Shown here piece after piece: positions 1-20,654 of a stretch of 22,466 nucleotides of DNA. The stretch is from positions 1 through 22,466 of the IMG/VR virus record IMGVR_UViG_3300005100_000017. One strand, given 5' to 3'. Source of the stretch: a virus. The number at the start of each line of letters is the position of its first letter. Within the stretch, counting starts at the first letter, position 1. The translations under genes and the position numbers were made by a program. The notes under the pieces are model-generated. The model did not search any database. It was not told where the DNA came from and worked only from the letters and a program-made list of their open reading frames with translations.

Positions 1-465
1 ATATACGATAATTATATCGGTGGTAATGTAGCTATGTCTATATATGATACGGACGTACTCAATTTATGGAATGTCACGAGCAGACCCGGACCGAATATCA
101 TAGGAGGTCCATTCATTGGCGGGAACTACTACACGGATTATACCGGTAGCGATACAACGGGTAACGGCTTTGGTGGATTCCCTTATTTCATAGAGAATGT
201 AGCTTCCGGGTCAGATGGTCATGATTACTTACCATTAACGACAGTCGGTGAACCAGATCCGGCAGTATGTGGTGATGTGGACTGTAATACTAATGTTAAT
301 ATAATTGATGTTATAGAAATTTATAAGCGCGTCTGTGATCCGGGATATTCACTCGAATGTGTTAACGAGGCGGATGTAAATTGTGACACTAACATAAATA
401 TAATTGATGTTATTGAAGTTTATAAGAGAGTGTGTGATCCGAATTATGTTCTGAATTGTTGTTGA
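1..465 (+). CDS. Beta-helix surface protein C-terminus with dockerin domain (5' partial)
   Basis: The frame is open from base 1, so the gene starts upstream of the window; about 154 residues are visible. The first half carries GGNYYTDYTGSDTTGNGFGG and a DYLPL motif, typical of the last turn of NosD-type parallel beta-helix (pectin-lyase fold) proteins of archaeal cell surfaces. The last ~60 residues hold two dockerin-type calcium loops, DVDCNTNVNIID and DVNCDTNINIID, each followed by a VIEIYKRV or VIEVYKRV helix, which together make one type I dockerin. Six or more cysteines flank the loops, suggesting disulphides outside the cell. A dockerin binds a cohesin domain, and one is encoded at the far right of the window (21520-22466). 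It is unclear whether this gene is viral or the edge of a host region. Confidence 0.8.
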   Translation: MYDNYIGGNVAMSIYDTDVLNLWNVTSRPGPNIIGGPFIGGNYYTDYTGSDTTGNGFGGFPYFIENVASGSDGHDYLPLTTVGEPDPAVCGDVDCNTNVNIIDVIEIYKRVCDPGYSLECVNEADVNCDTNINIIDVIEVYKRVCDPNYVLNCC

Positions 466-2064: not shown

Positions 2065-3762
2065 ATGGCAAATCAAGGATATGTTTCTTATAATTCGTTA
2101 GGGGGACAATTAGGGAGATTATCACCAATCGAGATCAATCAGACTATGTTAAGTCCGATTCAATCTTTAGAATACACGGATGACAAGCAAATGCGTAAAT
2201 CGGTATTTACTGAGGATTTCTATGTACGTCCGGTCTTCGGACGTCCGAGACTTGGAATCTCATACGCTGAATTAGAGCCGTATGAAGATAACATAATTAT
2301 ACGAATGATAATCACCCACATCATCGATTCCGTTTGTTCAACAGATTTCAAGGTAGTTCCTATCGACGAAGAGGATGAGATATCTGATGCAATGCAGAAT
2401 ACTCTTGATGAGGCAACAGACTTTTTCGAATCTAAAAAATGGATGGAGTCATGGAACAATACAATCAGACGGATGTTACCAGATTTACTCATGTATGATT
2501 GTGGGGTCTTAATCAAGATATTTGGAAAAGAATGTTATGAAAAAGATGGAACGTTGAAGGAAAAAAATGAAACACCACCACTCGAGTTAAGCTCACGTGA
2601 TGGAAGAAGTTTCCTGATCGACTGCGACCCTTATGGTCGCATTCTAAAGTATTGGCAATATTCTTTTATGAATATACAATCAACGCCAATCGCATTCTCA
2701 AAAGATGAGATCATTTACATTATGGGACGACCGAAGTCCCGGTCTGTGTACGGTGTTGCGTCATTACAGATTGTAAAAGATGTAATGGATTACTTGACAG
2801 CTTCTATTGATGCAAACCGGGCATTTTGGGAAAACGGAATGTTTCCGGGAATGCAGATAGACCACCCGGATATTGTAGATCCAGATGAGTTAAAGGCACG
2901 CGCGCAACTTTACAAGGAAACGCTTAAGGGCGAGCACAATTACAACAAGGCACTTATCACGTCAGGCGGTACGAAGGTAACACCATTACAATTCACTAAT
3001 CAACAAAATCAATGGTTAGAGTCGTCTGAATACATGCAAAAGCTTGTATTTGCTTTGTTTAAGATATCACCATCACAATTAGGTTTTACTGAACAAACAA
3101 ACCGTGCAACAGCAATCGTTCAGAGTGAGAATTATAAACAAGAAGGCGTTAAGACAATTCTTACACTTCTCGAAAATTATCTTAATAGAGAAATAATTTG
3201 GAAGTATTTCGGTGAGGATATACTATTCAAATTCGATGATTCACTCGATCTTGCAGATGAAAAGCAACAGGTAGATATTGACCACATCAAACTTACGGAT
3301 GGCACTGCAACGATCAATGAAATTCGATCGCGTGATGGTGGCGAAGAATTCGCGGATGAGGAATGCAATGCACCATTTGCTCAAATGACACTACAAGATA
3401 AGCTGATGAAGTCGGGTATGGAAGAGGAAGAAGAAGGAGAATCCGGCGGTTGGGGTGGAGACGAGGATGAAGAGCCGGGTGAACAGCCAGGTGAAGAAAA
3501 AACTCCCGTAGAGGAAGCCGCACCTGAGACACCAGCCGAGAAGTTTGAAAAAGCTGTGACAGCAAGTGCTGCGATGGGAACTCCTGGTGCGGCAATGATC
3601 CCAGTTGTGATTGACGGAGCAGCTAAAAAGAAAAAGAAGAAAGAAGAAGAGGAGCAGGAAGAGAAAACTAAAGATTCACTCGATAAATGGTCTGTTGACA
3701 CACAGAAAGGTATTGAGAAAGAATTAAAACAGCTTTATAGAGATGGTAATACAAATGATTGA
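2065..3762 (+). CDS. Phage portal protein (HK97/SPP1-like)
   Basis: The portal is the dodecameric ring at the capsid vertex through which DNA is packaged. The 565-residue protein has the family's features: an N-terminal stretch with the first helices (EDNIIIRMIITHIIDSVCST at ~74-93), a central wing and clip region with KDEIIYIMGRPKSRSVYGVA (~213-232) followed by the long helix VKDVMDYLTASIDANRAFW, and the conserved crown and stem motif FKISPSQLGFTEQTNRATA (~332-350). After residue ~415 comes a low-complexity tail rich in Glu, Gly and Pro and then a Lys/Glu run (~526-535), unusual for a portal and perhaps a docking arm for neighbouring proteins. A GAGGT site sits 8 bases before the ATG. Its stop overlaps the start of the next gene by eight bases. 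No terminase gene precedes it here. Confidence 0.92.
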   Translation: MANQGYVSYNSLGGQLGRLSPIEINQTMLSPIQSLEYTDDKQMRKSVFTEDFYVRPVFGRPRLGISYAELEPYEDNIIIRMIITHIIDSVCSTDFKVVPIDEEDEISDAMQNTLDEATDFFESKKWMESWNNTIRRMLPDLLMYDCGVLIKIFGKECYEKDGTLKEKNETPPLELSSRDGRSFLIDCDPYGRILKYWQYSFMNIQSTPIAFSKDEIIYIMGRPKSRSVYGVASLQIVKDVMDYLTASIDANRAFWENGMFPGMQIDHPDIVDPDELKARAQLYKETLKGEHNYNKALITSGGTKVTPLQFTNQQNQWLESSEYMQKLVFALFKISPSQLGFTEQTNRATAIVQSENYKQEGVKTILTLLENYLNREIIWKYFGEDILFKFDDSLDLADEKQQVDIDHIKLTDGTATINEIRSRDGGEEFADEECNAPFAQMTLQDKLMKSGMEEEEEGESGGWGGDEDEEPGEQPGEEKTPVEEAAPETPAEKFEKAVTASAAMGTPGAAMIPVVIDGAAKKKKKKEEEEQEEKTKDSLDKWSVDTQKGIEKELKQLYRDGNTND

Positions 3763-4723
3763 AATAGATTTACGAAAACTTGAACGTGGTACAGGTACAG
3801 CACCCGTGAAGGTCACAAGGGGTGGTAAAACATTCTACCAACAGCGACGTGTTGGTCGGAAAGAAACGACGACGGATAAACCTGGTGCGATGGAAGACAT
3901 ATCTATTAATGATATGAGTGATGATGATATCGACGCAGCGTTTAAAAAGGGTAAACCATTACCACTTACTGTAGATAAGATAACTAAAGATGGTCATACC
4001 ACTAATATATCATTCAGTGAGCCGGGATGGCATGCAACGCTTACGACGCGAAGTATAACGAAAGAAAAGAAAGTTCCTGGTAGGACTATAGTCGAATGGC
4101 GTAAAAAATTCCAAGAAACTGAGATGGAACTCTGGAATGGCACTACTAAAAAGAGTAATTATGCGACAGCAGCCACTCGCGTTGACGTGGATGATGTTGC
4201 AACTGCTAAAGCTAAAGTTACTAAAGGTGCAGAATTAGTAAGGAAACGACTAAAGGGTTCTGTCGGGTTAGATATTGAATATGATTCTAATTATCATTCA
4301 TTCGATACCAAAGAAGAAATTCAACGTAAAGAGAAGGCATCCAGTGAAGTGAAGGCGAAAAAAGAAAGGATAGAACGTGAAGAAGAAGAACGGAAGAGTG
4401 GTGCGTCATCTGGAATTAAGGATATTTCCAAAGAATTAGCTGAGATAATTGAAAGTGGACAATTGAGTGATATATTTGCTAATAAACCTGAAATTTTGTA
4501 TAGTTTAACCGAAAGGATTGTCGCTAATAAGGATGAGGCTATGGGACATATCAAAGATACCAATTCTATCACTGGTGAACCGTCGGATAAAGCTGTGGCT
4601 TTAGGTAAAGCTAATAAATTATTAGCCATGTCTGCCGATGCTGCACACGAATATATAAAAGATCCCGGAAACAGAGCTGAAATTGGAAAATTATTAAATG
4701 TTTTCATGGGAGCTGTTAAGTGA
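3755..4723 (+). CDS. Unknown protein with N-terminal EIDL/GRKE module (322 aa), possible packaged effector
   Basis: I choose the ATG at 3755 (not the in-frame ATG at 3743) because it then begins MIEIDLRKLERG exactly like the next gene at 4747, and the upstream bases are also alike. Residues 1-37 form a module: MIEIDLRKLERG, then VKVTRGGKTFYQQRRVGRKE. After it come INDMSDDDIDAAFKKGKP, a beta-rich segment, a Lys/Glu-rich helix (~190-215, coiled-coil-like) and a helical C-terminus (ISKELAEIIESGQLSDI and onward). No enzyme motif is recognised. The gene overlaps the portal by eight bases, so it is probably co-expressed with it. The shared module and the neighbouring ADP-ribosyltransferase suggest a virion-associated protein; that is inference. 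Confidence 0.75.
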   Translation: MIEIDLRKLERGTGTAPVKVTRGGKTFYQQRRVGRKETTTDKPGAMEDISINDMSDDDIDAAFKKGKPLPLTVDKITKDGHTTNISFSEPGWHATLTTRSITKEKKVPGRTIVEWRKKFQETEMELWNGTTKKSNYATAATRVDVDDVATAKAKVTKGAELVRKRLKGSVGLDIEYDSNYHSFDTKEEIQRKEKASSEVKAKKERIEREEEERKSGASSGIKDISKELAEIIESGQLSDIFANKPEILYSLTERIVANKDEAMGHIKDTNSITGEPSDKAVALGKANKLLAMSADAAHEYIKDPGNRAEIGKLLNVFMGAVK

Positions 4724-4746: not shown

Positions 4747-5949
4747 ATGATTGAAATAGACCTTCGGAAGTTAGAACGTGGTAAGAAAAGTGAATGGCGT
4801 ACCGTTCATCGCGGTGGAAAAACGTTCCAACAACGGTTCAAGGTCGGTAGAAAGGAAACGTCGGAACGTGACATTCCACCAAGTAAGAAGATAATGGATA
4901 TCATAAGGACTGCTGTTGATAAAGGCGAAGAATATGGATTCACGAGTGTCACGGAAGATGGATCGGCAGGTTGGGATGATATCACTATTCCAGGTAGCTA
5001 CGAACCTGCTGTAACTCATATCGATTTTAAAGTGTCGGGTAATACCGTGACCAATATAGCCACCGGTAAAAGTGTGACACTTACAGATAAATTTTTAGAT
5101 TTATCAAGATTGGGTGATGAGATGAAAAGTGGCGCTCTCGGATTATTAGGCGATCTTGATATCAGTGAAGATTTAGGAGTTGCGAAAGATTATAATAAAT
5201 CGTTATCGGCGGACGTGGAAGATATTTCTGATTTTGTTCCAGAATATAGTGAACCTTCAGGAGATGCCGACGAAATGAAGGGTAAATATTCACCGAAAAT
5301 GGGTTTAAAATATTGTTCCAATATACCAACTTTTGGTGCCGAATCTTTAATTTCATCTTTTTGGTTAAGTGGCGCTCCTGAATATGGAAGTCTTATAGGT
5401 GAAAATGTTAGAGATATAATGAAAGGTGAATATAATAAAGATAACATATTACATTCACCATTGAAAGTATTAATGGAAACATCCAAAACAGTATCCAGTA
5501 AATATGGTTCGGATAATATATATCGTGGTGAGACTAATATAAATTCTGCGAAGTCGATAATTGAAGGTATCGATTCAGATGGTAGCGTACAATTATCAGA
5601 TAAGGTTTCAAGTTGGTCCGAAAATGAAAAATTAGCTAAATGGTATTCGTCTGTACATAAGCAACGAACACCGGGTTCACAAACTGAAACGAAATCACAT
5701 GTTATGCTCAAATTAGATAAAGATAACTATTCAGATAATGTCGTATTTGACTATCGTGCTTGCGGTAGTAAATATTATCCAGAACAAGAAGTTACAATTT
5801 ATGGTGGTGGCGTGAAACTTACTGGAGATAATGTGATGGTTAATACTAAAACTCCAAAACGTAAGACTAAGAAATGGATGACATTTAATCAATTTAAATC
5901 TGAAGGTGGGTCAACAGAAGAGTTTATAAACCAAATGAGGTACACATGA
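4747..5949 (+). CDS. Probable ADP-ribosyltransferase with N-terminal EIDL/GRKE module (400 aa)
   Basis: Residues 1-37 repeat the module of the previous gene (MIEIDLRKLERG, RGGKTFQQRFKVGRKE). The C-terminal ~200 residues fit the R-S-E class of ADP-ribosyltransferases, which move ADP-ribose from NAD to proteins: Arg260 in NIYRGETN, a serine motif VSSWSENEKLA (Ser289/Ser291), and the E-x-E motif PEQEVTIYGG (Glu346, Glu348) in the usual place before the last strand. Fold order and spacing match VIP2, C3 and Alt-like enzymes. Phage T4 packs its ART Alt in the head and injects it with DNA; the location beside the portal and the shared module make a similar role plausible here. The middle (~40-180) is unknown. 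It overlaps the next tiny gene by four bases. The target is not predictable. Confidence 0.75.
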   Translation: MIEIDLRKLERGKKSEWRTVHRGGKTFQQRFKVGRKETSERDIPPSKKIMDIIRTAVDKGEEYGFTSVTEDGSAGWDDITIPGSYEPAVTHIDFKVSGNTVTNIATGKSVTLTDKFLDLSRLGDEMKSGALGLLGDLDISEDLGVAKDYNKSLSADVEDISDFVPEYSEPSGDADEMKGKYSPKMGLKYCSNIPTFGAESLISSFWLSGAPEYGSLIGENVRDIMKGEYNKDNILHSPLKVLMETSKTVSSKYGSDNIYRGETNINSAKSIIEGIDSDGSVQLSDKVSSWSENEKLAKWYSSVHKQRTPGSQTETKSHVMLKLDKDNYSDNVVFDYRACGSKYYPEQEVTIYGGGVKLTGDNVMVNTKTPKRKTKKWMTFNQFKSEGGSTEEFINQMRYT

Positions 5950-6068
5950 TGGAACGGAAGAAAGTAGAAATATCTGATGAAGATGGACGAGACCGAATCA
6001 CCAAAGACGACTTACATTTATTCGATGAGATGTCGGATGATGAAGCCGAAGCGGTGTTTGGTGATTGA
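5946..6068 (+). CDS. Tiny acidic protein with MSDD motif (40 aa)
   Basis: The ATG overlaps the stop of the ART gene (ATGA), and the stop abuts the next ATG, an arrangement typical of translational coupling. The product is very acidic and ends LFDEMSDDEAEAVFGD. The piece EMSDDEAEAVF resembles DMSDDDIDAAF in the protein at 3755, so the two may bind the same partner. No family is recognised. Confidence 0.6.
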   Translation: MMERKKVEISDEDGRDRITKDDLHLFDEMSDDEAEAVFGD

Positions 6069-6272
6069 ATGGTCGTAGAAAAACGTGGGAATCAACATTG
6101 CACTATACACTGTCACGGTCCGGACAAGGGTAAAGTTATAAAGTGTTTTCCGACAGAAAAGGAAGCTAACGACCAACATCGTGCTATAATGGTGAATAAG
6201 ATGGTCAAACAGATCGAGATAGACCTTAATAAACTCGATGAGCGAGGAATCAATGACGATAATAATATATAA
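6069..6272 (+). CDS. Small protein with CHxxxHCHGPxKGK motif and C-terminal EIDL motif (67 aa)
   Basis: Starts directly after the previous stop. Residues 8-42 carry NQHCTIHCHGPDKGKVIKCF then TEKEANDQHRAIMVN. The pattern HCHG.(x)KGK.I.C(F/H).(T)K.EA..(H)RAI is one I recognise from small proteins or domains encoded beside viral head genes; its Cys and His residues could bind a metal. The C-terminal third contains KMVKQIEIDLNKLDERG, a copy of the IEIDLxKL motif found at the start of the two genes upstream. A minimal protein carrying this motif next to effectors could be an adaptor. Function unknown. Confidence 0.7.
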   Translation: MVVEKRGNQHCTIHCHGPDKGKVIKCFPTEKEANDQHRAIMVNKMVKQIEIDLNKLDERGINDDNNI

Positions 6273-6411
6273 AATAACTCCGAATAAAGCAATCGAGATA
6301 GATCGTTGGACTAATGGTAACTTCGAGGGACGTTTTTCTGAAAGGAAGATGACCGAAAAAGAGATTATCGACCAATTTAATCGTGGTTATTATAGAACGA
6401 GTGAAATTTAA
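6253..6411 (+). CDS. Small hypothetical protein (52 aa)
   Basis: This frame overlaps the end of the previous gene by 20 bases and begins MTIIIYKITPNKAIEIDRW, followed by FEGRFSERKMTEKEIIDQFN. It has a beta-strand start and a helical end, is protein-like in composition and fills what would otherwise be a gap. No clear ribosome binding site is seen; coupling to the upstream gene could serve. No family recognised. Confidence 0.55.
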   Translation: MTIIIYKITPNKAIEIDRWTNGNFEGRFSERKMTEKEIIDQFNRGYYRTSEI

Positions 6412-6438
6412 TTATAAATGTTGATGAAGGAGTATTAA

Positions 6439-6798
6439 ATGAGTGAATGGAATCAAAAACAACTATTCGGTCGCGTCCGGGATTCTGCGAGATCGATGGA
6501 CCCGGTACTTGGCACGACAGTTAATGCTGCCACTGAGATCATAGATCTCGATACGCGCCAGTTCAAGGACACAGAATTTATAATCGCTAATACGGGTTTA
6601 AATTCACTTTATTACTCCATAAGGGTTCGGAGTGAGTACGATGACGGCACTGATTTCGTACCATTCTCAAATACTATAGCAGCTGGTGAGTCGGATGAGG
6701 CAATACTCGTTAGACATGCCAGAGTTCTAATAGATATGAATTCTCACACAACAGATTCTCATACAACGTATTCAATCAGTGTAATAGGTGGAACATAA
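6439..6798 (+). CDS. Small beta-rich protein, probable virion component (119 aa)
   Basis: An AAGGAG site precedes the ATG by 7 bases. The protein has alternating strands (TEFIIANTGLNSLYYSIRVR, FVPFSNTIAAGESDEAILVR, TYSISVIGGT) without cysteines or a signal peptide, typical of small jelly-roll or immunoglobulin-like virion proteins such as head fibres, decoration or neck proteins. Its stop overlaps the start of the HNH gene that follows (TAATG). It resembles in length and composition the products at 7646 and 12675, which may be relatives in a structural set. Assignment to the virion is inference from composition and position. Confidence 0.7.
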   Translation: MSEWNQKQLFGRVRDSARSMDPVLGTTVNAATEIIDLDTRQFKDTEFIIANTGLNSLYYSIRVRSEYDDGTDFVPFSNTIAAGESDEAILVRHARVLIDMNSHTTDSHTTYSISVIGGT

Positions 6799-7646
6799 TG
6801 ACACTTGATTTACCAGAAGAAGAAATCTGTAACAAATATATCTCTGGGTTATCTACTGTAGATTTGGCGGAAGAATATAATTGCAGTAATGAGACTATAG
6901 GAAATAGATTAAGAAAGAATAATATAAAATTGAGAGATTATTCAGAACGTAATTATCAAAGACTTATTAATGATCCAACTATTAAGATGAGAACGAGTGA
7001 AAGTTTAAAACGATCGCATATTGATGATCCAACAATAGCGAAAAGGATATCGAAAGGTGTAATTCAGGCTCATATCAATGATCCAACAATAGCGAAAAAA
7101 ATGTCAAAAAGTACTATTCAATCTTATATTGATGATCCCACATATAGAGAAAGAATATCTAAAGGAGTATTAAAAGCTCATATTAATGATCCTACATATA
7201 AAGAAAGAATATCTAAAGGAGTATTAAAAGTTCATATTGACGATCCCACAATAGCAAAAAGGTTATCAAAAAGTACAATTCAATCATATATCGATGATCC
7301 TACATATAAAGAGAGATTATCAAAAGGAGCGTTCCGATCACATATTAATGATCCAACATTATCAGAAAGATCATCAGCGAGAATGCAAAATCAAGATTAT
7401 GATGCCGGAGAATGGACAGGATTTATAGATAGAGATAATCGCGATTACATCAATGATGAACGGAATTGTATAAAATTGAATAAACGTTTTAATGGGTGTC
7501 ACATGCATCATATAATGTCAAGTATTGTCATTTATATACCATCAGAATTACATATACATTATTTTCCACATAATATAAAAACAGGTTTAAATATGTATGA
7601 AATTAATATGGTGGCATTTCAATATATTAATAATGGTGATATATAA
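6798..7646 (+). CDS. HNH homing-type endonuclease with eight 18-residue repeats (282 aa)
   Basis: Residues 1-50 form a helix-turn-helix (IDxTVDLAEEYNCSNETIGNRL-like fold). Residues 57-200 hold eight tandem 18-residue units of the type I(N/D)DPT(I/Y)xxR(I/L)SKxxxxxxH, which resemble NUMOD3 DNA-binding repeats of homing endonucleases. Residues ~201-282 carry YDAGEWTGF and the nuclease core GCHMHHI (His235, His237, His238) with NMYEIN. Two more genes in the window (11812, 17455) share this core. The gene is more AT-rich than its neighbours and is joined by one-base overlaps at both ends (TAATG), so it looks like a precisely inserted free-standing nuclease. It would cut DNA lacking the insertion and spread itself. 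Confidence 0.85.
   Translation: MTLDLPEEEICNKYISGLSTVDLAEEYNCSNETIGNRLRKNNIKLRDYSERNYQRLINDPTIKMRTSESLKRSHIDDPTIAKRISKGVIQAHINDPTIAKKMSKSTIQSYIDDPTYRERISKGVLKAHINDPTYKERISKGVLKVHIDDPTIAKRLSKSTIQSYIDDPTYKERLSKGAFRSHINDPTLSERSSARMQNQDYDAGEWTGFIDRDNRDYINDERNCIKLNKRFNGCHMHHIMSSIVIYIPSELHIHYFPHNIKTGLNMYEINMVAFQYINNGDI
6966..7397 (+). repeat. 54-bp tandem repeats (8 units) inside the HNH gene
   Basis: Eight in-frame units of 54 bases encode the 18-residue DNA-binding repeats. Units 2-7 are close copies at the DNA level; the last decays into the linker. The number could vary between strains by slippage or recombination. Confidence 0.85.
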
Positions 7647-8000: not shown

Positions 8001-9203
8001 ATGAAACTCGATTATACTAAAGCTCCGGATATGCCGCCGCAATATGTGGCATATGTTAGTCCGAATTTCCATTACGACACTTATAAACAGACATTCCCGA
8101 CTATACAAGAAGCCATCGATTTTATGTATGGTAAATATGGTTGGGTATTCGGCATGACTATAAATGTATATCCCGGCACATATAACGAGCAGATACATAG
8201 TTTTCCTATATTTTTCATAAAAGGAATTATACACAACGCACCTTCGAGTGAACAAAGGGTTGCAACGCTTTATAATACCGGTGCCGATCCCGATCATTAC
8301 CCATTACGTGCCAATGATGGCGATGGATATATGATTCATAATATGAATATAAAAACGGATGACGGTGGGACTTTTGGGAGACTCGGTAATGATCGATACG
8401 TTTCCTGCAATTTCTCAGGCGGGGCATTCATTGAATCGCTTCAAGACGTAACGATATTCGAATCGTGGGCTGATTGTTCATTTGTGAACTGTCCGGCATT
8501 TAATGTTACGGGTGTTGAGCCACAAGGTAGATATCTCGTATTCGAAAATTGTTGGTTTGGATGGTGGCAAACCATGAGGTTCGAATCCACACACACAGCC
8601 GGAAATGCTGTATTCGATATAGATGGTGGACATTTAGCATTTACGAAATTGTCACTTAAGGGTGACTGGTATCATTTTGCCAAAAATTATCATAGTTACG
8701 GTGCATACCGAACTGATTACGATACTACCAGAGGAATCGTTTATCGGAACGTTACAATCTCGAATGGTATTCATTTCTTTTCTGACCCGATGTCATTTAA
8801 GATGATAGGATGTGAGATGGAAGATGCTGCCGAAATGCCAATTCCTGATGATGAAGCCGACATTACGGCAGATGTTCCCATTACGGATGTTAATTTCCAG
8901 AATAACTCGATGCATAACGGTTTATCCGGCGAAATAGAGATTCAAGGTAAGATAAGGCATGTTGGTGGAACTGAGATAAATAAATATATATCTATACAAG
9001 ACGCTATAGATTCTTTAACTGCGGATGGTATAATTTTCCTACAACCCGGAACTTATGAAGAACAAATACATTCAAGAGCCGAAATTCTTATTCAAGGTAG
9101 GACGAACGAGGGTGTTCCGGCAGTAAAATCTACGATATTATATAATACTGGTGTTGATGAAGATCATTATCCGTTAGGTGATAATGATACATCACGTATT
9201 TAA
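8001..9203 (+). CDS. Beta-helix (pectin-lyase fold) appendage protein, N-terminal part; frame-broken
   Basis: The first 400 codons of what should be a ~1,120-residue protein. Repeated blocks begin with YISIQDAIDSL and LQPGTYEEQIHS, the opening turns of pectin-lyase-type parallel beta-helices found in viral tailspikes and surface proteins. A first, divergent block (~residues 25-325, PTIQEAIDFMYGKYG, NVYPGTYNEQIHS) is followed by the start of a second (from ~327). The frame ends at TAA 9201-9203, in the middle of the second block; the +1 frame continues exactly where the homologous third block would. Compared with the third block there is one extra base between 9180 and 9198. I see no signal peptide, consistent with a virion protein. 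Likely role: host-surface or glycan binding. Confidence 0.8.
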   Translation: MKLDYTKAPDMPPQYVAYVSPNFHYDTYKQTFPTIQEAIDFMYGKYGWVFGMTINVYPGTYNEQIHSFPIFFIKGIIHNAPSSEQRVATLYNTGADPDHYPLRANDGDGYMIHNMNIKTDDGGTFGRLGNDRYVSCNFSGGAFIESLQDVTIFESWADCSFVNCPAFNVTGVEPQGRYLVFENCWFGWWQTMRFESTHTAGNAVFDIDGGHLAFTKLSLKGDWYHFAKNYHSYGAYRTDYDTTRGIVYRNVTISNGIHFFSDPMSFKMIGCEMEDAAEMPIPDDEADITADVPITDVNFQNNSMHNGLSGEIEIQGKIRHVGGTEINKYISIQDAIDSLTADGIIFLQPGTYEEQIHSRAEILIQGRTNEGVPAVKSTILYNTGVDEDHYPLGDNDTSRI

Positions 9204-9840
9204 CATAAGTGATATAACGATTAAGACAGAGCCGGACGAAACCATAGGAAAACTCAGTGGAAGTAATTTCACCGGTGTTGTATTCCAGAACGGTTATTTT
9301 ATAGAAGCAACCACAGATCAAAATATGCTAATGGGTTTATCTGACTGTTCATTTGAGGACACGATGGCATTTAACCTTACAGGAGTTGGATCTGGCGGGC
9401 TCCGTGCAATGACTATTAATGGGTGTTATTTTAACGATTACGCAACACATTCGGTCATAGATTCAACGCATGATGCGACATTAGTTATTGTGAAAAATAC
9501 TATTTTTCATCAGTTTTATCCTGATGTCGGCGGCAATTGGAATGTTGAATATTCGAATTGTCATTCATTCGGAGTTAGTCGGAGTGTAATCAGCACAACA
9601 AATAAGATTGCATATATACAGTGCATATTATCAAATGGCTTACATTTTACGAGTAATCCTGATACAATTATACAATTGTCAACATTTAATGACGGTTGTG
9701 GATATGCGATAACCGGAGAAGACATTACAGCTGATGTAGTTGTCACTAATGTTGATTATGTCCAGAATGTTCAACAGAATGGAATAAGTGGGATGATTCA
9801 GACTGCGGGTGATGTGATAAACGTTGGTGGAGATTCTGTT
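8979..9840 (+). repeat. 861-bp tandem module, copy 1 (862 with extra base)
   Basis: Begins at the codon for N in NKYISIQDAID. It is homologous over its whole length with 9841-10701. The offset between copies is 862 before the frame break and 861 after, which locates one extra base at about 9180-9198. Confidence 0.85.
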
Positions 9841-11370
9841 AATAGATATTATTCGATTCAAGATGCAATTAATTCATTGCCTGATGGTGGTGTTATTTCT
9901 CTCCAACCCGGAATCTATGAGGAACAAATACATTCTACCGCTAATATTCTTATTCAGGGTAGAACAAATGAAGGTGTCCCAGCGGTAAAGGCTACAGTGA
10001 TATATAATACAGGTGTGGATTCGAATCATTGGCCATTAGGTGGAGATGATACTGACTTATTTAATATAAGTGATATAACAATTAAAACGGAGCCAGATGA
10101 GGTCATAGGGAAACTCAGTGGGAGCAATTTCACTGGAGTTGTATTTGAGAACGGTTATTTTATTGAATCAACTGCAGATCAGGGCATGTTAATGGGATTA
10201 GATGCGTGTTCATTTGAAAATTCAATGGCATTTAATCTCACAGGAATTGGCTCGGGTGGAATACGCGCAATGACTATTAATGGATGTTATTTCAACGATT
10301 ATGCGACTCATTGGGTGATGGATTCGACACATGATAACACATTAGTTATCGTGAAGAATACTATCTTTCATAATGCTTATCCGGATATTGGAGGTAATTG
10401 GAGAGTTGAATTCTCAAATTCCCATTCGTTTGGTCCGAGTCGAAGTTTGATAAGTACGACTGGTAGAATTGCATATATACAATGTATCATATCTAATGGA
10501 TTACATTTTACGAGTAATCCGGATACAATTATGCATCTTAATACGTTCACAGATGACTGTGGATATGCGATTACAGGTGCGGATATAACTTCCACGGTAG
10601 ATGTTACGGATGTTGATTATGTGCAGAACGTTCAGCAGAATGGTCTTGCAGGCGAGATTAAGATTCTCGACCCGATTAAGAATGTCGGCGCGAATGCTAT
10701 TAATCGATATATCAGTATTCAGGATGCCATAGATTCTATCACTACGAGCGGAATTGTTGATTTACATCAGTCGTTCACTGGATTAGATGAATTATTAATT
10801 CCTAATAATACAAAAGTGACAATTGACGGTAGAAGAGTGTACTCACTTGCTTTCACAGCCGATATCGTAGAATTAGGACTCGGAGAAGAGTTAATTTTCA
10901 ATAATCTATCAGAAATAACGGGCGGCAACGTTGAAATCAACGGCAATGATGCGAAATTCCACATGCATTCGTGTCCGTGCGGATCAAATACATTGCAGAT
11001 ATTAGCCACATCTGGAACGGGAACTATGGTGCATATACGTGATACTAATATAATGGGGGCTACGGGATGTTCGCCGTTACAGGTTAATTCATTAGATGTA
11101 TCATATCTACTATCATATTCGAGACTCACTGGTGCTATCGGTCAACCTGCAGTTGAATTTACGGTATTATCACTCGATAAGTTAAGGTCGCGATTCAGTA
11201 CGTTTGTGCATGGTGACGGAATTAATAATGCACCACTTACATACACCGGAGCCGGAAAAGTCAGTTTCGCTATGTATTCATGCGGATTGAATGCCGCGTG
11301 GAATCCGGCGAGCTTTACGAACACTATAGGATCAGCGAACAATACGACTGATCCGAATATAGACTTCTGA
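9178..11370 (+). CDS. Beta-helix appendage protein, C-terminal part (continues 8001-9203 in +1 frame)
   Basis: This frame opens at a GTG with no ribosome binding site, and the homologous text starts only at VFNISDITIKTEPDETIGKL (from ~9196), so it is best read as the continuation of the gene at 8001. It contains the rest of the second 287-residue block, a full third block (NRYYSIQDAINSL, LQPGIYEEQIHS, FNISDITIKTEPDEVIGKL), and a fourth block that begins like the others (NRYISIQDAIDSI) but then changes to a different end (~200 residues with GGNVEINGNDAKFHMHSCPC and a Gly/Asn-rich finish). Each block holds cysteine and asparagine-rich helical turns. The ending may be a distinct receptor-binding or trimerisation tip. 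If translated from the GTG alone it would give a truncated but still folded helix. Confidence 0.78.
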   Translation: MIMIHHVFNISDITIKTEPDETIGKLSGSNFTGVVFQNGYFIEATTDQNMLMGLSDCSFEDTMAFNLTGVGSGGLRAMTINGCYFNDYATHSVIDSTHDATLVIVKNTIFHQFYPDVGGNWNVEYSNCHSFGVSRSVISTTNKIAYIQCILSNGLHFTSNPDTIIQLSTFNDGCGYAITGEDITADVVVTNVDYVQNVQQNGISGMIQTAGDVINVGGDSVNRYYSIQDAINSLPDGGVISLQPGIYEEQIHSTANILIQGRTNEGVPAVKATVIYNTGVDSNHWPLGGDDTDLFNISDITIKTEPDEVIGKLSGSNFTGVVFENGYFIESTADQGMLMGLDACSFENSMAFNLTGIGSGGIRAMTINGCYFNDYATHWVMDSTHDNTLVIVKNTIFHNAYPDIGGNWRVEFSNSHSFGPSRSLISTTGRIAYIQCIISNGLHFTSNPDTIMHLNTFTDDCGYAITGADITSTVDVTDVDYVQNVQQNGLAGEIKILDPIKNVGANAINRYISIQDAIDSITTSGIVDLHQSFTGLDELLIPNNTKVTIDGRRVYSLAFTADIVELGLGEELIFNNLSEITGGNVEINGNDAKFHMHSCPCGSNTLQILATSGTGTMVHIRDTNIMGATGCSPLQVNSLDVSYLLSYSRLTGAIGQPAVEFTVLSLDKLRSRFSTFVHGDGINNAPLTYTGAGKVSFAMYSCGLNAAWNPASFTNTIGSANNTTDPNIDF
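9841..10701 (+). repeat. 861-bp tandem module, copy 2
   Basis: A 287-codon unit from NRYYSIQDAIN to just before NRYISIQDAID at 10702. It is the intact comparator for copy 1; many stretches are the same at DNA level (for example around GAACAAATACATTC and ATAAGTGATATAAC). Confidence 0.85.
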
Positions 11371-11388: not shown

Positions 11389-11805
11389 ATGGTAAAATTA
11401 AAAATAGAAATCGATCTCGATGATCTCGGAGATATGAGTACCGATCCGATACCAGTTGATGAAGTTGAACCGAGATTTTTACCAACTGTCGATGCATCAT
11501 ATAATAACGAATGGATGAACAATGAAAAAGTTTGGTATAAGACATACACGAAGGGACAATATAGATGGGTCCGCATCGAAGGACGTGGTGAAGAACCATC
11601 AAAATGTAAAGATATAATCATAAGATTGTCGCCGGGTAATACCGATAAGTTACGAGATGAAGAACGAGGGTACGACTTAGAACATGGCGATGTTATTTAC
11701 GATGAGCATCCGGATAACTTATATATCCAATCAGAGAGATTATCTCAATTGAAGTTATTAGGATATGAAGAAAATGAAAATAATTTACCTAAGTTAATTA
11801 TTTAA
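11389..11805 (+). CDS. Unknown protein with N-terminal IEIDL motif (138 aa)
   Basis: Starts MVKLKIEIDLDDLGDMST, carrying the IEIDLxxL motif of the genes at 3755 and 4747. A second part, VWYKTYTKGQYRWVRIEGRG (~residues 49-68), lines up loosely with the W/RGGK/GRKE half of the module. The rest (DIIIRLSPGNTDKLRDEERG, ERLSQLKLLGYEE) is mixed and acidic. No enzyme motif is recognised. It sits between the beta-helix gene and an HNH gene. The module suggests a virion or packaging link, by inference. Confidence 0.7.
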   Translation: MVKLKIEIDLDDLGDMSTDPIPVDEVEPRFLPTVDASYNNEWMNNEKVWYKTYTKGQYRWVRIEGRGEEPSKCKDIIIRLSPGNTDKLRDEERGYDLEHGDVIYDEHPDNLYIQSERLSQLKLLGYEENENNLPKLII

Positions 11806-13558: not shown

Positions 13559-13963
13559 ATGAAGGAAATAAGTAATAAAATATTAATTATAGATGATTCT
13601 GTGGCATATTATAAATTACTGATGGCAGAAATGTGTATGCATGGCGATAAGTCGTTTATGGATAATATTTTGTTTGCAGAATCCGCAGAAAAAGGTCTTG
13701 AACTATATGTAATGCATCGTCCGATGGTTTGTCTTGTGGATGTTAGAATGCCAGGACGTTCAGGTATTGATGCGGCTAAAATGATTTGTGATTATGATGA
13801 ATCAGCTAATATAATGCTTGTCACAAATTATTCGAGTGATCCCGATGTCTCGAAGGCGATTTCGGATAAACTTGTATCTGGAGCACTCGATAAAGGCGTC
13901 GGAGTCGGCGTCATTGCAGGATTTATCTCTATATTACTCAAGACCGTGGGGAAATTAGTATGA
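13559..13963 (+). CDS. Single-domain response regulator (CheY-like receiver, 134 aa)
   Basis: All key receiver positions are present: the acidic pair Asp12/Asp13 (ILIIDDS), the phospho-acceptor Asp61 (CLVDVRMPGRSG), Thr89 (IMLVTN) and Lys112 (ALDKG). There is no output domain. AGGGGAT lies just before the ATG. Receivers take phosphate from a histidine kinase; this one is followed by a protein with a phospho-histidine domain (14045), so the two may form a partial relay. The C-terminus GVGVGVIAGFISILLK is more hydrophobic and glycine-rich than usual and may alter helix 5. Virus-encoded receivers are rare. Confidence 0.85.
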   Translation: MKEISNKILIIDDSVAYYKLLMAEMCMHGDKSFMDNILFAESAEKGLELYVMHRPMVCLVDVRMPGRSGIDAAKMICDYDESANIMLVTNYSSDPDVSKAISDKLVSGALDKGVGVGVIAGFISILLKTVGKLV

Positions 13964-14127
13964 CATCATTAAAGAAATCATTTAGAGATATCTACGGATA
14001 TGGATTGCTTTTAGATGTCGCATTATTAAAAGAGGAGTTAGCAGATGAAAGACGAAGAGAAATCGCCGGCACCATTAAACCGGTTCAGTACTACATTCCT
14101 GACGGAACTTCAGGAATTCCAGAATAA
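13960..14127 (+). CDS. Possible small protein overlapping the PocR-HisKA gene (55 aa)
   Basis: The ATG overlaps the stop of the receiver gene (ATGA) and the frame runs MTSLKKSFRDIYGYGLLLDV, a helical middle (KEELADERRRE) and IKPVQYYIPDGTSGIPE. It overlaps the next gene by 83 bases in another frame. A long overlap is uncommon, so either the product is a short coupling peptide or the frame is fortuitous; its composition is protein-like. Confidence 0.4.
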   Translation: MTSLKKSFRDIYGYGLLLDVALLKEELADERRREIAGTIKPVQYYIPDGTSGIPE

Positions 14128-15033: not shown

Positions 15034-17019
15034 GTGAATGAAAAACTAACAAAAGCTGAAATAGGGTTTATTGGACAACTTTTGACAGCAATAAGTGTTG
15101 AGAGTTTCCGAAAATTACTTACTGAACATATCTTGAATGCTTTTATTGCCAGCCATAATAATACTAATATAGAATTCAATTTTGGTGGATCGAAACCAGA
15201 TCCAAACACTATAGAATACATAAAAGAGCGCGAGATAATACTTTCAGATAAAACTGCAAGTAAACTCGAAGGCGACCTTAAGTATGAACTTATCACCGCA
15301 TTACAGAATAACGAATCGATAAGTCAGATCACGAAACGGTTAGATAAAATCTTTAAAGATATGATGCCATGGCAACTTGAAAGGATTGCAAGATCGGAGA
15401 TAATTGATGCTCAGAACGCCGGACGTATTTCGGCATATAAAGCGAGTGATGTTGTCGAATATAAGATGTGGATTGCCGCAAAAGGTGGCAAGGGAGAGCG
15501 TGTCTGTGGATTGTGTGCAAGTCTACATGGACAGGTTCAACCAGTTGATAAACCATTCGTCAACCCGAATAACCCCGCGGAATCATGGCAACATCCGATT
15601 TGTCATCCGAATGGACGGTGCACTACGGTGCCACTAACGGATTTACCGGATGATATAATAACAATTAATGGATTAACTTATGACTCGGATGAGAAGATCG
15701 GTAAAGTTGAGATCTCACTGGATTTATTAAAATCCCGACAGAAGAGAAAAGCATGGGTCGTCTTATTTGCTAACGGACATGCAGTTCAGTGTTTCGAGGA
15801 TGAAGTTGATGCCGATTATTTCATAACAACGAGTAATAAAAAGGATGCTGGTTGGTTTGACCTCAACAGTAAGACATATCGGGAACTCAAACCCGGATGG
15901 AAGATTCACAAGAGCGGAACCAAAAAAACATTTAAGACTGATGGCGAGAGTAGAAAAGCTGCTAAAATAGAGATTGATGTAGAACCACTGAGTAAAGGTG
16001 AAAAGCGTATCTGGATTAAGGAAACGGCTAAACGACAAGGTCATTATCGAAGAATAAAGAGCGCGAAATCTGAACCTGAGATTGTTGATCAGGTAGTTAT
16101 TCCTAAAGACTCGTTGCCGATGACGCCGGAGAATTTGAAGGAACTCAAGTCCTTTAAAGATTTAGGCATGTTTGGTGGTATGCATGAATCGGAATCGTAC
16201 TGTGCGAAATTCAATGATAATGCAAATGCAATGTATAAGGTGATAGATAAGGGTGCTATCGCAGGAGAGGTTTCAACTTATAATATTTCAAAGATATTAG
16301 ATTGGGATGTTATTCCAGAAACCATTAAAACCAATATCAAGAGAAAAGGTGATGGTTCATGTCAGAGATGGATAGAGGATGGACGCACGCCTTATGATGG
16401 TTCCGAGTATGTCGAGGATCAGCATGTAATGATAGGAGAGGATCATTTTGATGATTTATCAAAAATAGTTATTTTAGATATGGTGGTAGGAAATTATGAT
16501 CGTCATAGTGGAAATGTGATGATTGATAGTGACAACCGATGTTGGGGAATAGATAATGAGGATTGGGGTACTGCCGGAACGGCAGATGATTTCATAACTT
16601 CATTTGATGAGCGTGCAGGATTGTCAGACGTGGGTGGATTTTCACCGATGATAAGATGGTTAGATAAAAATCTTATAGGAACTGAGTATTTAGCATTACG
16701 AGAGAAGATAGTTGCTAATATGAAGGACGTCGTTGATAATAGAGTCGAGATATTAGATAATTATACTAAATATATAAGATTTGATGATTTCTTAATTGAT
16801 GATTCAATGTCTATAGATGAAGCGATTGGTAATGTCGCTACTAATTTGAAATATATAAAGAAATATTATAGTAAGGAATTAAATCTTGATAATCCAATAC
16901 CAGAATATGATGACCTCTGTCATGAATCAAATGTAGTACCAAATTATCTATTATCTGATGATGATATGAAATCGAAATCTGAAGAAATGTCAGAGAAACT
17001 AAAAAATAAGGACGAGTGA
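15034..17019 (+). CDS. MuF-type head morphogenesis protein fused to a PI3/4-kinase-like domain (661 aa)
   Basis: Starts at GTG behind AGGTGAT. Residues ~75-205 are a phage Mu gpF-like minor head domain: SISQITKRLDKIF, LERIARSEIIDAQNAGRISA, and the cysteine motif CGLC (158-161) with HPICHPNGRC (187-196). Two module copies follow, KVEISLDLLKSRQKRKAW (224-241) and KIEIDVEPLSKGEKRIW (311-327) with RQGHYRR. From ~380 to 610 lies a kinase of the PI3/4-kinase or HipA-like superfamily: Lys402 (MYKV), Glu412 (GEVSTY), catalytic loop GNYDRHSGN (Asp489, Asn494) and metal Asp507 (WGIDNED). MuF proteins in temperate phages often carry C-terminal effector domains, and this fits that plan. MuF acts in or near the head and portal, so the kinase could enter the cell with the DNA. 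The substrate, lipid or protein, is unknown. Confidence 0.85.
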   Translation: MNEKLTKAEIGFIGQLLTAISVESFRKLLTEHILNAFIASHNNTNIEFNFGGSKPDPNTIEYIKEREIILSDKTASKLEGDLKYELITALQNNESISQITKRLDKIFKDMMPWQLERIARSEIIDAQNAGRISAYKASDVVEYKMWIAAKGGKGERVCGLCASLHGQVQPVDKPFVNPNNPAESWQHPICHPNGRCTTVPLTDLPDDIITINGLTYDSDEKIGKVEISLDLLKSRQKRKAWVVLFANGHAVQCFEDEVDADYFITTSNKKDAGWFDLNSKTYRELKPGWKIHKSGTKKTFKTDGESRKAAKIEIDVEPLSKGEKRIWIKETAKRQGHYRRIKSAKSEPEIVDQVVIPKDSLPMTPENLKELKSFKDLGMFGGMHESESYCAKFNDNANAMYKVIDKGAIAGEVSTYNISKILDWDVIPETIKTNIKRKGDGSCQRWIEDGRTPYDGSEYVEDQHVMIGEDHFDDLSKIVILDMVVGNYDRHSGNVMIDSDNRCWGIDNEDWGTAGTADDFITSFDERAGLSDVGGFSPMIRWLDKNLIGTEYLALREKIVANMKDVVDNRVEILDNYTKYIRFDDFLIDDSMSIDEAIGNVATNLKYIKKYYSKELNLDNPIPEYDDLCHESNVVPNYLLSDDDMKSKSEEMSEKLKNKDE

Positions 17020-17026
17020 GGTATAA

Positions 17027-17161
17027 ATGAAAGGAAAACCTAAAAAAGACGGATCGGGTAAAGGCACACAGGAAAACCACAATCGCGGCGGATGTTACGA
17101 TGGTGAAGTGTGCGAAATCAGCGAAATGATTCGGCAGCAATACCGAGGACGTGATAAGTGA
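17027..17161 (+). CDS. Tiny basic protein with KDGSGKG and cysteine motif (44 aa)
   Basis: Begins MKGKPKKDGSGKGTQENHNR, then GGCYDGEVCEISEM. A KxDGSGKG(x)xxNxxRGGC pattern recurs in tiny proteins encoded by archaeal viruses and their hosts; I know of no function. GAGTGAGGT lies ahead of the ATG, and the stop overlaps the next start (TGATG), so it is likely co-translated with the MuF-kinase and the gene after it. Confidence 0.65.
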   Translation: MKGKPKKDGSGKGTQENHNRGGCYDGEVCEISEMIRQQYRGRDK

Positions 17162-17358
17162 TGCCAGAAGGACAGAAAGAAGCTGAAACGGCACAAACCT
17201 TTGATGCAGATGCATATAAAACTAATCTGATCGATAATGAAGATTATTCAGAGGAAACGGCTTCTGTTAAAGCTAAGAAAAAGAAAGAGCAATTAGAAGC
17301 ACAGGCGGAAAAGGGTCCGGTTGGTAAGATGCTTGAGATCGATTTGGGAAAACTTTAA
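17161..17358 (+). CDS. Small charged protein ending in an EIDL motif (65 aa)
   Basis: ATG at 17161 overlaps the previous stop. The protein is hydrophilic and helical, with a Lys-rich run (ASVKAKKKKEQLEAQAEK) and the C-terminus GKMLEIDLGKL, a bare copy of the LEIDLxKL motif found at the start of genes 3755 and 4747. A terminal copy on a small charged protein suggests a peptide tag that binds something common to all carriers. No family is recognised. Confidence 0.65.
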   Translation: MPEGQKEAETAQTFDADAYKTNLIDNEDYSEETASVKAKKKKEQLEAQAEKGPVGKMLEIDLGKL

Positions 17359-18275: not shown

Positions 18276-18313
18276 CTATTTAATTTTATTTGATATATGG
18301 AGGAAATTATAAA

Positions 18314-19603
18314 ATGGAGAAAAATGAAGAAGATAATAATTTTGAATATATTTTGAATTTACAGAAACTTGAAACTGGAGATGATAACAGACTTATCATT
18401 GCGGGAATGTGTTCATCCGGTGACATCGATCATGATGGTGAACGTGTTGATATGGATTCACTTAAGTCACAGTTCCTTAAATACATGGAGAATCCCGTCT
18501 TACGGTATTTCCATGGAAAGGATAGTAGAAACCCGGACGCGATAGGTAAAGCGATACCTGAGTACACCGATACGTCAGGGAAAACATACAAGACGGAGTT
18601 TACGGATAACGGGCCGTTCATCGTGGCAGAGATATCGCAAGCTGACGACGTGGCATCAATTCGCACAAAAATCGTTGAGAAGAACTTAAGGGGACTTTCA
18701 ATCGGTGGGCGTGCAAAACGTGTAAAAGCGTGGGATGCAACACTTGGTAAAGATGTAAACAATGTTATTGTATCACGATGGAACGAAACGAGTGTTGTAG
18801 ATCTACCTGCATCAAAGACAAGCTACTTTGAAGTACTTAAAGCGGCTTGCACTGGTGATAATTGTCCTAATAATATAGAATTAATCGAGGAAACCGACCC
18901 AATTGTGGATCAGGCAGTTTTAAAATTTGAAGAGATAATTAATGAGAACGCAGAGATGAAAGACACGTTGAAAAAGCTTGAATCACATGTTCAAGCATTG
19001 AAACGTGCCAATGACCCCGTGACAGTCATTACGGGTGAGGAAAACGAAAATAATGATCACATTTCCACAATAAAAAAAGCGGAAGTGGTAGAAATCGGAG
19101 GTAACACTATGGAACAAGAAGATGGTATTGTAAGATTAGAAGTCCCGGAGCTTGAGGAGTTTATCAAGAGCACGGTTGACACGATGGTAGAAGAGCGTGA
19201 GACAGTTGAGAAACTTGAGGACTACGATAGACTCGTACGCGAAATCAAAGATATGCGAGCTAAAATCGAGGGTCTTGAGGCAGCGGCTAAAGCCAATGCA
19301 AAAGCACTACCGGAAGGTAAACAGACGGCTATGAAGTCTGAAGGCGATATCGAGGACGCTGAGGTTATCGAGAAGGCAGCTAAGAAGAAGAAAGAGCCTG
19401 AGAAAGAGTATGATGAGGATGGTAACGAGATCGTCGACCCGGCAGACATGAAAATGAAGAAAATAGAAGCCGAAATCGAAGAACTTAAGTCAAGTCCTCT
19501 TTACAAAGCGCAACAGGACGAAGTTATAGTCGAGAAATCCGAGGCTACTCCGGCAACTGGCGTACTTTCAGGCGTGATTGCGGCACATTACGGAGGTAAC
19601 TAA
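18314..19603 (+). CDS. Prohead protease fused to scaffold (429 aa)
   Basis: The ATG at 18314 with GGAGG 10 bases upstream is preferred over in-frame upstream starts. Residues ~20-180 match the HK97-type prohead protease (serine peptidase family U35/S78): His67 (LRYFHGKD), the glycine-rich GKA, Ser129 (RGLSIGGRAK) and WNETSVVDLPA. It would cleave scaffold and capsid N-termini during head maturation. From ~190 onward is a long helical, Glu/Lys-rich region (MKDTLKKLESHVQALKRAND; MKMKKIEAEIEELK) fitting an internal scaffold. Residues 10-22, FEYILNLQKLETG, weakly echo the EIDLxKL motif of other genes. The capsid gene follows after one base. An internal ribosome binding site and start (19097-19111) suggest a separate scaffold product. 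Confidence 0.88.
   Translation: MEKNEEDNNFEYILNLQKLETGDDNRLIIAGMCSSGDIDHDGERVDMDSLKSQFLKYMENPVLRYFHGKDSRNPDAIGKAIPEYTDTSGKTYKTEFTDNGPFIVAEISQADDVASIRTKIVEKNLRGLSIGGRAKRVKAWDATLGKDVNNVIVSRWNETSVVDLPASKTSYFEVLKAACTGDNCPNNIELIEETDPIVDQAVLKFEEIINENAEMKDTLKKLESHVQALKRANDPVTVITGEENENNDHISTIKKAEVVEIGGNTMEQEDGIVRLEVPELEEFIKSTVDTMVEERETVEKLEDYDRLVREIKDMRAKIEGLEAAAKANAKALPEGKQTAMKSEGDIEDAEVIEKAAKKKKEPEKEYDEDGNEIVDPADMKMKKIEAEIEELKSSPLYKAQQDEVIVEKSEATPATGVLSGVIAAHYGGN
19097..19111 (+). promoter_or_regulatory. Internal ribosome binding site and start in the protease gene
   Basis: GGAGGT is followed 6 bases later by an in-frame ATG. The leader, GGAGGTAACACTATGG, closely resembles that of the capsid gene, GGAGGTAACTAAAATGG. 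Such a strong site in the middle of an ORF at the protease-scaffold border is unlikely by chance. Confidence 0.65.
19109..19603 (+). CDS. Nested scaffolding protein from internal start (164 aa)
   Basis: In frame with the protease gene, the internal ATG gives MEQEDGIVRLEVPELEEFIK and the whole coiled-coil tail, without the protease domain. Nested scaffolds with their own start, as in phage lambda C/Nu3, are known for this gene pair. The product would be an acidic helical protein with KKKKEPEKEYDED and a C-terminus GVIAAHYGGN; scaffold C-termini often contact the capsid protein. Supported by the ribosome binding site and domain border only. Confidence 0.6.
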   Translation: MEQEDGIVRLEVPELEEFIKSTVDTMVEERETVEKLEDYDRLVREIKDMRAKIEGLEAAAKANAKALPEGKQTAMKSEGDIEDAEVIEKAAKKKKEPEKEYDEDGNEIVDPADMKMKKIEAEIEELKSSPLYKAQQDEVIVEKSEATPATGVLSGVIAAHYGGN

Positions 19604-19604
19604 A

Positions 19605-20654
19605 ATGGCAAAAGACGGATGGAATGGTGCAGGTGAAATTGATCACCAGAACCTATATAAAATGAGTTTCGGGGATCTCCCGGATGAAGCAATCTATGAT
19701 GACGGTATGAATCATATTCGAACTTTCGCAAAGGGCGAGGCTCTTGTGACAGAAACCGGTGAGGGCGAATTAGCAAAGGCAGTTAACGTTGGTGCGGCTT
19801 CTGGTGTCGCAGGATACGCATATACGCCTATCGTTTGGGATCAGGCAGTGGTTGATATCACACGTAAGATGACACCACTTTTAGGTCTTGTTCCGAAAGT
19901 AACAAATCAGGGTAAAGTAGCACAGTATTACCGTGTTACTGCACGCGGTGCAGCAACGTGGGGCGATGAGGATCCAAGTCTAAATGAGGCAGATGACACC
20001 AAAGAAGAGGCAAGCGCGCCTATCAGGTATCTACGTGTCACCGGACGTGTAACAGGTGTAGCACAGATCGCAGGCGCTCACTTCGAGAGTTCAATGCAGA
20101 GAGAAGTTCTCAATAAGACTCAGTCAGTAAATGAGGCAATTGAGGCGTCGATTCTTACTGGTAACAACGCAACAAATCAGTTCCAGCCAGACGGACTCCA
20201 GCAGGTTTTAACGTCTAATTCTTCACCTCAGGGTGGGGCTATTACTCTATCAGCAGTTAGAAAACTCGTTAGTGACTGTTTTGTCAATAAGGGCGCTCCT
20301 AACCTGATTATAACAGATCCGTATACCGCTGATGATCTTGTCGAGCAGATTATGGATTATACGAAATATGTGGATCCTAATATCACCGTAGCATGGGGTT
20401 TACAACTTCCAAGTGTCCAGACAGTAGTTGGAAGACTACCGATTCTTGCAAGTCAGTTTATGCCGGTTGCGACAACTGAGAGACGCCTATTCTGCGTCAA
20501 TACGAACTTCCTGCAACAGAGGGTTTTAAAGGATGTTTCGTTTGAGCGACTGGCGAAGACTGGGGACAGCGAGAAGTTCTTCCTATCAACGTATAGGACG
20601 TTCATCAATAAGTTCCCTGAGGGCATGGGACAGCTTACTGAGATAGCAGATTGA
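19605..20654 (+). CDS. HK97-fold major capsid protein (349 aa)
   Basis: GGAGGT lies ahead of the ATG. The protein has the features of HK97-type capsid proteins: an N-terminal arm, a strand-rich E-loop region (YRVTARGAATWGDED), the helix around NEAIEASILTGN with the ILTG motif typical of this fold, a P-domain and a C-terminal A-domain (ITDPYTADDLVEQI, GRLPILASQF, FFLSTYRTFINKFPEG). Position directly after the protease/scaffold gene is the usual order. It shows no long N-terminal delta domain, in keeping with a separate scaffold. Codon use and GC are higher than in the HNH genes, consistent with high expression. Confidence 0.9.
   Translation: MAKDGWNGAGEIDHQNLYKMSFGDLPDEAIYDDGMNHIRTFAKGEALVTETGEGELAKAVNVGAASGVAGYAYTPIVWDQAVVDITRKMTPLLGLVPKVTNQGKVAQYYRVTARGAATWGDEDPSLNEADDTKEEASAPIRYLRVTGRVTGVAQIAGAHFESSMQREVLNKTQSVNEAIEASILTGNNATNQFQPDGLQQVLTSNSSPQGGAITLSAVRKLVSDCFVNKGAPNLIITDPYTADDLVEQIMDYTKYVDPNITVAWGLQLPSVQTVVGRLPILASQFMPVATTERRLFCVNTNFLQQRVLKDVSFERLAKTGDSEKFFLSTYRTFINKFPEGMGQLTEIAD

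Follow-up and report, generated by a model that had tools for sequence, protein, structure and literature searches.

The window analysed here is a 22,466-base IMG/VR virus record (IMGVR_UViG_3300005100_000017), which harbours, among head and late genes, a gene for a predicted ADP-ribosyltransferase (ART) of 400 amino acids, P0001. This gene is the second one after the portal gene, as the initial annotation had placed it, and the three motifs of an R-S-E ART are found at the residues named there, I258-Y-R260-G-E262, S288-S-W-S-E-N-E-K295 and P345-E346-Q-E348-V-T-I, as read from the open reading frame (ORF). P0001 and the product of the preceding gene, P0006, also possess a common N-terminal module (44% identity over 88 amino acids, E=5e-10), in agreement with that annotation. 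The module starts with a short peptide, IEIDLRKL in P0001, and proteins carrying this peptide or its variants are called tagged in the following. We consider it reasonably probable that P0001 is an R-S-E-type mono-ADP-ribosyltransferase with an N-terminal targeting module, which would be packaged in the head and injected as an effector.

The relationship of P0001 to ARTs was traced through homologues from sister viruses, which were found by searches with the portal and the capsid protein. P0002, encoded by G001 (L003:2690-4051), is 41% identical to P0001 over its length, and the 73-kb sister virus G006 encodes a further homologue, P0008. A hidden Markov model (HMM) of P0001, P0002 and P0008 matches the catalytic segment of a MuF-ART fusion, within its ART part (E=5e-5); this fusion is encoded by a more distant relative, L009, and itself matches Pfam DRAT (E=1.3e-5). 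Right behind the portal gene of G006 we found three further tagged ARTs, P0009, P0010 and P0011. P0009 passes the Pfam cut-off of ADPrib_exo_Tox (1.1e-12) and P0010 that of DRAT (2.8e-6); P0011 stays below the DRAT cut-off (score 23.4 vs 25) and its E-x-E is displaced. Comparison by hhalign of the profile of the window group with that of the other ARTs, a set that holds no window sequence, gave 92.7% and a score of 50.4, vs at most 19.7 in 200 column-shuffled profiles and 11.6 for capsid and portal profiles. In the profile alignment to Vis (4xzj, E=0.006), a solved arginine-specific ART, the YRG, the TSTS motif and the E-x-E are in register, although this is not independent evidence because the profile includes the Vis-like P0009 (E=2e-9). 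The profile of the window-type ARTs alone matched nothing in the PDB, and no relative emerged when species genomes were scanned with the P0001/P0002 alignment.

The residues expected to take part in catalysis are conserved in the closest relatives. The homologues P0002 and P0008 both retain R260, E346 and E348, and R260, S289, E346 and E348 are all identical between P0001 and P0002. The serine motif corresponds to S-[S/C]-W-[S/T] in most relatives, and P0008 and P0005 have Cys in place of the first Ser of the S-T-S position. The ART domain is under purifying selection, with a ratio of nonsynonymous (dN 0.46) to synonymous (dS 1.47) divergence of about 0.31 between the codons of P0001 and P0002. 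Between module and ART domain, residues 40-184 of P0001 gave no match. A further tagged ART, in L040 (L040:12465-13337), is shortened in comparison with P0010 by a frame disruption; this broken copy still passes the Pfam DRAT cut-off (1.3e-6), and its truncation suggests turnover of effectors.

An AlphaFold model of residues 185-400, built from seven sequences, has a mean predicted local distance difference test value (pLDDT) of 69 and a predicted template modelling score of 0.68. Model residues 61-216 mostly reach pLDDT 64-92, except for the stretch preceding the E-x-E motif. R260 lies on the first core strand of the model (E73-78) and S289 on the second (E103-107), and E348, preceded by a loop of low confidence, begins a later strand. 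Alignment to PDB structures by VIA-align gave Z values up to 7.7, and the best 50 rows correspond to ART-superfamily folds with few or no exceptions (at most one uncharacterised protein), including tRNA 2'-phosphotransferases, Tre/HopU1/Vis-type toxins, cholera-/pertussis-type ARTs, and SidE and similar proteins. The search in BFVD revealed five matches with E<0.001, which include a head-morphogenesis protein of a phage and a protein of an uncultured archaeal virus, and the matches to phage head proteins reach E=2e-5. The predicted structure thus supports an ART fold without settling it. A single-sequence AlphaFold model of full-length P0001 was rejected (pLDDT 36).

The module of P0001 recurs throughout the virus group, where the module HMM gave 24 rows with E below about 3e-14, corresponding to about 22 distinct genes once overlapping reads of two genes were removed. 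Its first part is the peptide IEI[N/D/K][L/I]xxL and its second part is usually a basic hairpin, RGGKxFxRxxxxG, with other basic segments instead in some proteins. Seven IEIDLxxL cores were found in the proteins of the window, vs an expectation of 0.19 from shuffled proteins, with no more than 1 in any of 200 shuffles, and the counts in five contigs are 7, 5, 11, 10 and 4, vs 0.14-1.24 expected on the same basis; the core does not occur in four more distant relatives. In 26 out of 37 cases the core lies at most 25 residues from the N-terminus or at most 3 from the C-terminus, and nearly all other copies lie at the boundary between two domains. In G006, ten of the 45 proteins of the structural half carry the tag, vs none of 58 elsewhere (p=1.4e-4), and the prohead proteases of G001, G002, G006 and L040 have the tag at their very C-terminus. 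A search of 50,697 phage records for the module gave no convincing match, and neither did HVTV-1 or Drs3. Copies of the module are more alike within than between genomes with G006/L040 included (p=1.5e-4) and not without them (0.73); since this likeness rests on G006/L040 alone, it was not used.

The tag is combined with different enzymes. In the window the cargo comprises the ART, the unknown domain of P0006, a MuF protein with a PI3/4-kinase-like domain, and three small proteins. G006 encodes a counterpart of P0006 in the equivalent position (L036:423-1358), and the CTIHCHG domain, which in the window ends in the tag without cargo, is fused to tag and ART in P0002 and P0011. G006 possesses four intact tagged ARTs (P0008-P0011), as well as a tagged HExxH-type zinc peptidase and a MuF-zinc peptidase, both recognised by motif and without a significant Pfam peptidase match. 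Tagged GNAT acetyltransferases were found in G001 and G002, and JAB/JAMM-like proteins, again by motif, in G001 and in L040, in the latter next to the hairpin part only. PI3/4-kinase-like kinases related to TIGR03843 are fused to MuF in the window and stand alone with the tag in G006 and L040. G002 also encodes a tagged protein of 153 amino acids (L019:154-615) with LYHSTSLKNAEKISKEGF, which is tentatively KptA-like, with weak similarity to RNA 2'-phosphotransferase (NCBIfam E=0.016); it may represent a second type of ART among the cargo.

In known phages, both MuF and the prohead protease are located inside the head. A tag that occurs on MuF, on the protease and on a varying range of enzymes next to the portal is most readily interpreted as a head-targeting peptide, and the enzymes would be its cargo, delivered along with the DNA. 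In Methanobacterium virus Drs3 the gene order is simply terminase-portal-MuF-protease-capsid and the portal-MuF interval is empty, which indicates that effectors fill this interval in the virus group of the window. The ART relationship, the recurrence of the module, the gene position and the co-occurring enzymes are computed; catalysis, packaging, injection and target we infer. P0001 would be made late, together with the head proteins, and its first 8-40 residues would act as the targeting module. The IEIDLxxL peptide would bind a partner within the procapsid, which may be the portal, the scaffold/protease or the capsid shell, and would so bring the enzyme into the head. On infection P0001 would enter the archaeal cell along with the DNA and ADP-ribosylate a host protein, most likely on arginine, because its motif is E-x-E, which predicts an arginine acceptor in the distinction between E-x-E and Q-x-E ARTs. 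P0001 would then be one of a set of effectors with a common tag and differing enzymes. The wider proposal is that a portable encapsidation peptide, IEI[N/D]LxxL, placed at N-termini, domain junctions and C-termini, loads changing single-enzyme effectors into the head, as a modular protein-injection system of archaeal tailed viruses that is unrelated in sequence to the T4 peptides; it may well hold, but we put it forward tentatively and would not yet call it probable.

Several observations weigh against P0001 being a packaged ART. P0001 alone gave no ART match in Pfam, NCBIfam or PDB sequences, and searches of phage records and viral contigs with it found no ART either, so that the initial call as an R-S-E ART rested solely on the motifs. 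Compared as a single sequence with the other ARTs, P0001 scores 18.1, which is not significant, and therefore the family alignment carries the argument. The call is now backed by the sequence profile, the conservation of the motifs and the predicted fold, whereas P0001 itself passes no ART family cut-off in Pfam or NCBIfam. In the comparison with known structures, of the kind that the initial annotation had proposed, almost all of the best 50 VIA rows belong to the ART superfamily, but the scores are moderate, with Z below 8, and Foldseek of the ART model against the PDB gave nothing below E=0.1. Regarding the tag, the contrast between the structural half and the rest of the genome is not significant in G002 (p=0.26). 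One tagged gene also lies in the neck/tail region (L020:7707-8411; L039:12607-13155), and the tag may therefore signify structural assembly more broadly.

P0001 might instead be an active late ART that stays out of the virion and works in the producing cell, similar to T4 ModA/ModB, with a tag of other purpose. Such phage ARTs are known (PMC9503650) and the P0001 gene stands alone, without fusion to MuF. Nevertheless, we consider this unlikely, given the position in the portal-MuF interval, the tag common to MuF and the C-terminus of the protease, and the MuF-ART fusion in the related virus L009. Another possibility is a MuF-type polymorphic toxin that temperate viruses would direct against competing cells and that would require an immunity gene. 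Within the group the C-terminal enzymes of MuF vary (kinase in the window, zincin in L024, ART in L009), and the repertoire overlaps that of MuF toxins in ART and metallopeptidase (PMC5576092). However, P0001 has no MuF domain match, no immunity gene or integrase was recognised in the window (where neither was specifically searched for), and the presence of more than one effector in a genome points to takeover or counter-defence, which makes a toxin of this type quite improbable. P0001 could also be a structural protein of the head or neck whose ART fold has degenerated and become inactive, as the serine motif relaxed to S-C-W-[ST] in some relatives, the displaced E-x-E of P0011 and the broken L040 copy might suggest, but this is very improbable in view of the R, S and E-x-E retained in the window copy, the purifying selection, and the different enzymes that occupy the position behind the portal in sister viruses.

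The host of the virus is probably archaeal, as far as protein matches can tell. Among the phage records, the capsid protein of the window matches haloarchaeal viruses only (HCTV-2/HHTV-2), and the best match of MuF by bits and E-value is Methanobacterium virus Drs3. The PolB of G006 is closest to haloarchaeal viruses, and G002 encodes an RFC-like protein. Against an archaeal host stand the mixed matches of the portal protein and the only match of the major capsid protein in the genome collection, a virus-like, virus-sized contig in a Planctomycetota bin.

The coordinates of the features discussed are listed in Table 1. The probable prohead protease or scaffold protein of the window has itself only weak matches to phage-head profiles. 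Inside the head gene cluster, the window also possesses a gene for a response-regulator receiver (13559-13963, Pfam 1.1e-12) and, adjoining it, a gene for a PocR sensor (14045-14791, 4e-23) with a HisKA segment and no matched ATPase domain. Similar receiver/PocR pairs, judged by sequence, are present at the same place in G001 (L018:7918-9174) and G002 (L005:4755-6011); a signalling pair amid virion genes is odd. Three HNH-like genes with repeated segments of helix-turn-helix type (6798-7646, 11812-12651 and 17455-18228) lie between head genes and, judged by the look of their sequences, probably encode homing endonucleases. NosD and dockerin type I domains were found at the start of the window (34-465), and the head cluster encodes large repeated proteins of beta-helix-like type (8001-11370); both may possibly serve in binding to the host surface or to carbohydrates. 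Among the relatives, the anaerobic ribonucleotide reductase NrdD of G006 is split by an intein with a LAGLIDADG domain (L038:1593-4370), and one portal gene is apparently interrupted by an intein-like or homing insert (L045:10182-12059).

Table 1. Positions of the ART gene, its motifs, and the tagged and head genes (window positions unless a locus is given).
Feature	Coordinates	Strand	Evidence
Portal protein	2065..3762	+	PF04860 E=6.6e-31
P0006, tagged protein of unknown domain	3743..4723 (start may be 3755)	+	module HMM E=6e-20
P0001, tagged predicted ART, 400 amino acids	4747..5949	+	ORF; homologue P0002
N-terminal module of P0001, residues 1-38 (IEIDLRKL peptide and basic hairpin RGGKTFQQRFKVGRKET)	4747..4860	+	module HMM E=2e-20
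IEIDLRKL core, proposed capsid-targeting peptide	4750..4773	+	motif excess over shuffled proteins
Predicted ART domain of P0001, residues 185-400	5299..5949	+	hhalign to other ARTs; AlphaFold; VIA rows
Arg260 codon (IYRGE), motif 1	5524..5526	+	YRG invariant in 7/7 ARTs; aligns with YRG of Vis
SSWSENEK (Ser288-Lys295), motif 2	5608..5631	+	aligns with TSTS of Vis
Glu346-Gln-Glu348 (E-x-E), motif 3	5782..5790	+	aligned in 6/7 ARTs; aligns with E-x-E of Vis
ORF of 67 amino acids, CTIHCHG domain ending in tag IEIDLNKL, without cargo	6069..6272	+	
Tagged protein of 138 amino acids (IEIDLDDL)	11389..11805	+	homologue at L005:1642-2046
MuF head protein, two tag cores, PI3/4-kinase-like domain	15034..17019	+	PF04233 E=3.3e-11; PF00454 E=2.2e-5; TIGR03843 E=9.2e-13
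Protein of 66 amino acids, C-terminal tag LEIDLGKL	17158..17358	+	
Probable prohead protease/scaffold	18290..19603	+	gene order, similarity to sister proteins; sister orthologues end in tag
Major capsid protein, SU10-like	19578..20654	+	PF17236 E=4.6e-23
PI3/4-kinase-like kinases	window 15034-17019; L024:4588-5742, 5739-6596; L040:16437-17588		

Head-delivered effectors are well known in bacteriophages and are described as scarce in archaeal viruses. If the proposal holds, the short tag common to ARTs, peptidases, acetyltransferases and kinases would reveal by what means tailed viruses of archaea equip their virions. The tag offers a direct test, namely whether it loads cargo into the head, and could be used as a bait motif for further effectors, many of them without a recognisable family. 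The initial annotation had suggested that an ART of this kind in an archaeal virus would be new. This claim falls, because a listing of 2021 already includes ARTs for two haloarchaeal tailed viruses, HVTV-1 and HCTV-5 (PMC8651126), and gene 115 of HVTV-1, which lies between MuF and the prohead protease, encodes a C-terminal ADPrib_exo_Tox domain (E=1.4e-8). Similar to P0001, this ART domain lies within the head cluster; unlike P0001, it belongs to a zeta-toxin/ART protein of 1313 amino acids (L054:16123-20064, in the portal-protease interval) without a module match, and the ART is closer to ADPrib_exo_Tox. The same interval of HVTV-1 holds gene 113 (L054:11730-14876), which encodes a protein of 1048 amino acids with a zincin-like HEMGHAF motif. 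HVTV-1 is an isolated haloarchaeal virus and a possible culturable model for archaeal head effectors.

The internal proteins of T4 are loaded through capsid-targeting sequences, which are 10-19 residues long, and T4 also packages and ejects an ART, Alt (PMC9026906). The system of the window resembles that of T4 in an ART predicted to be packaged, a short N-terminal peptide common to several internal proteins, and a prohead protease encoded nearby. It differs in the sequence of the tag, unrelated as far as tested, in the additional placement of the tag at domain junctions and C-termini, in the wider set of enzymes and in the probable archaeal host. The likeness to Alt is in the way of working only, as tblastn of P0001 gave no match in phage records. 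Head contexts account for about 44% of phage ARTs, including MuF-ART fusions (PMC9503650), and MuF polymorphic toxins have been described (PMC5576092). Like the window group, these have ARTs and further effector domains within the portal-MuF region, as in the MuF-ART protein of L009, whereas the effectors of the window group are separate proteins linked by a short tag and not by MuF. Polyvalent proteins, reported as scarce in archaea, have a similar repertoire of ART, GNAT, JAB/RadC, metallopeptidase and kinase domains (Iyer et al. 2017, PMC5512222). In contrast, the window group has one enzyme per polypeptide, and P0001 holds a single recognisable catalytic domain and not the two or more effector domains that define a polyvalent protein. 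As far as these searches reach, the new part is that a set of effectors, each a protein of its own with a single enzyme, have one short tag in common.
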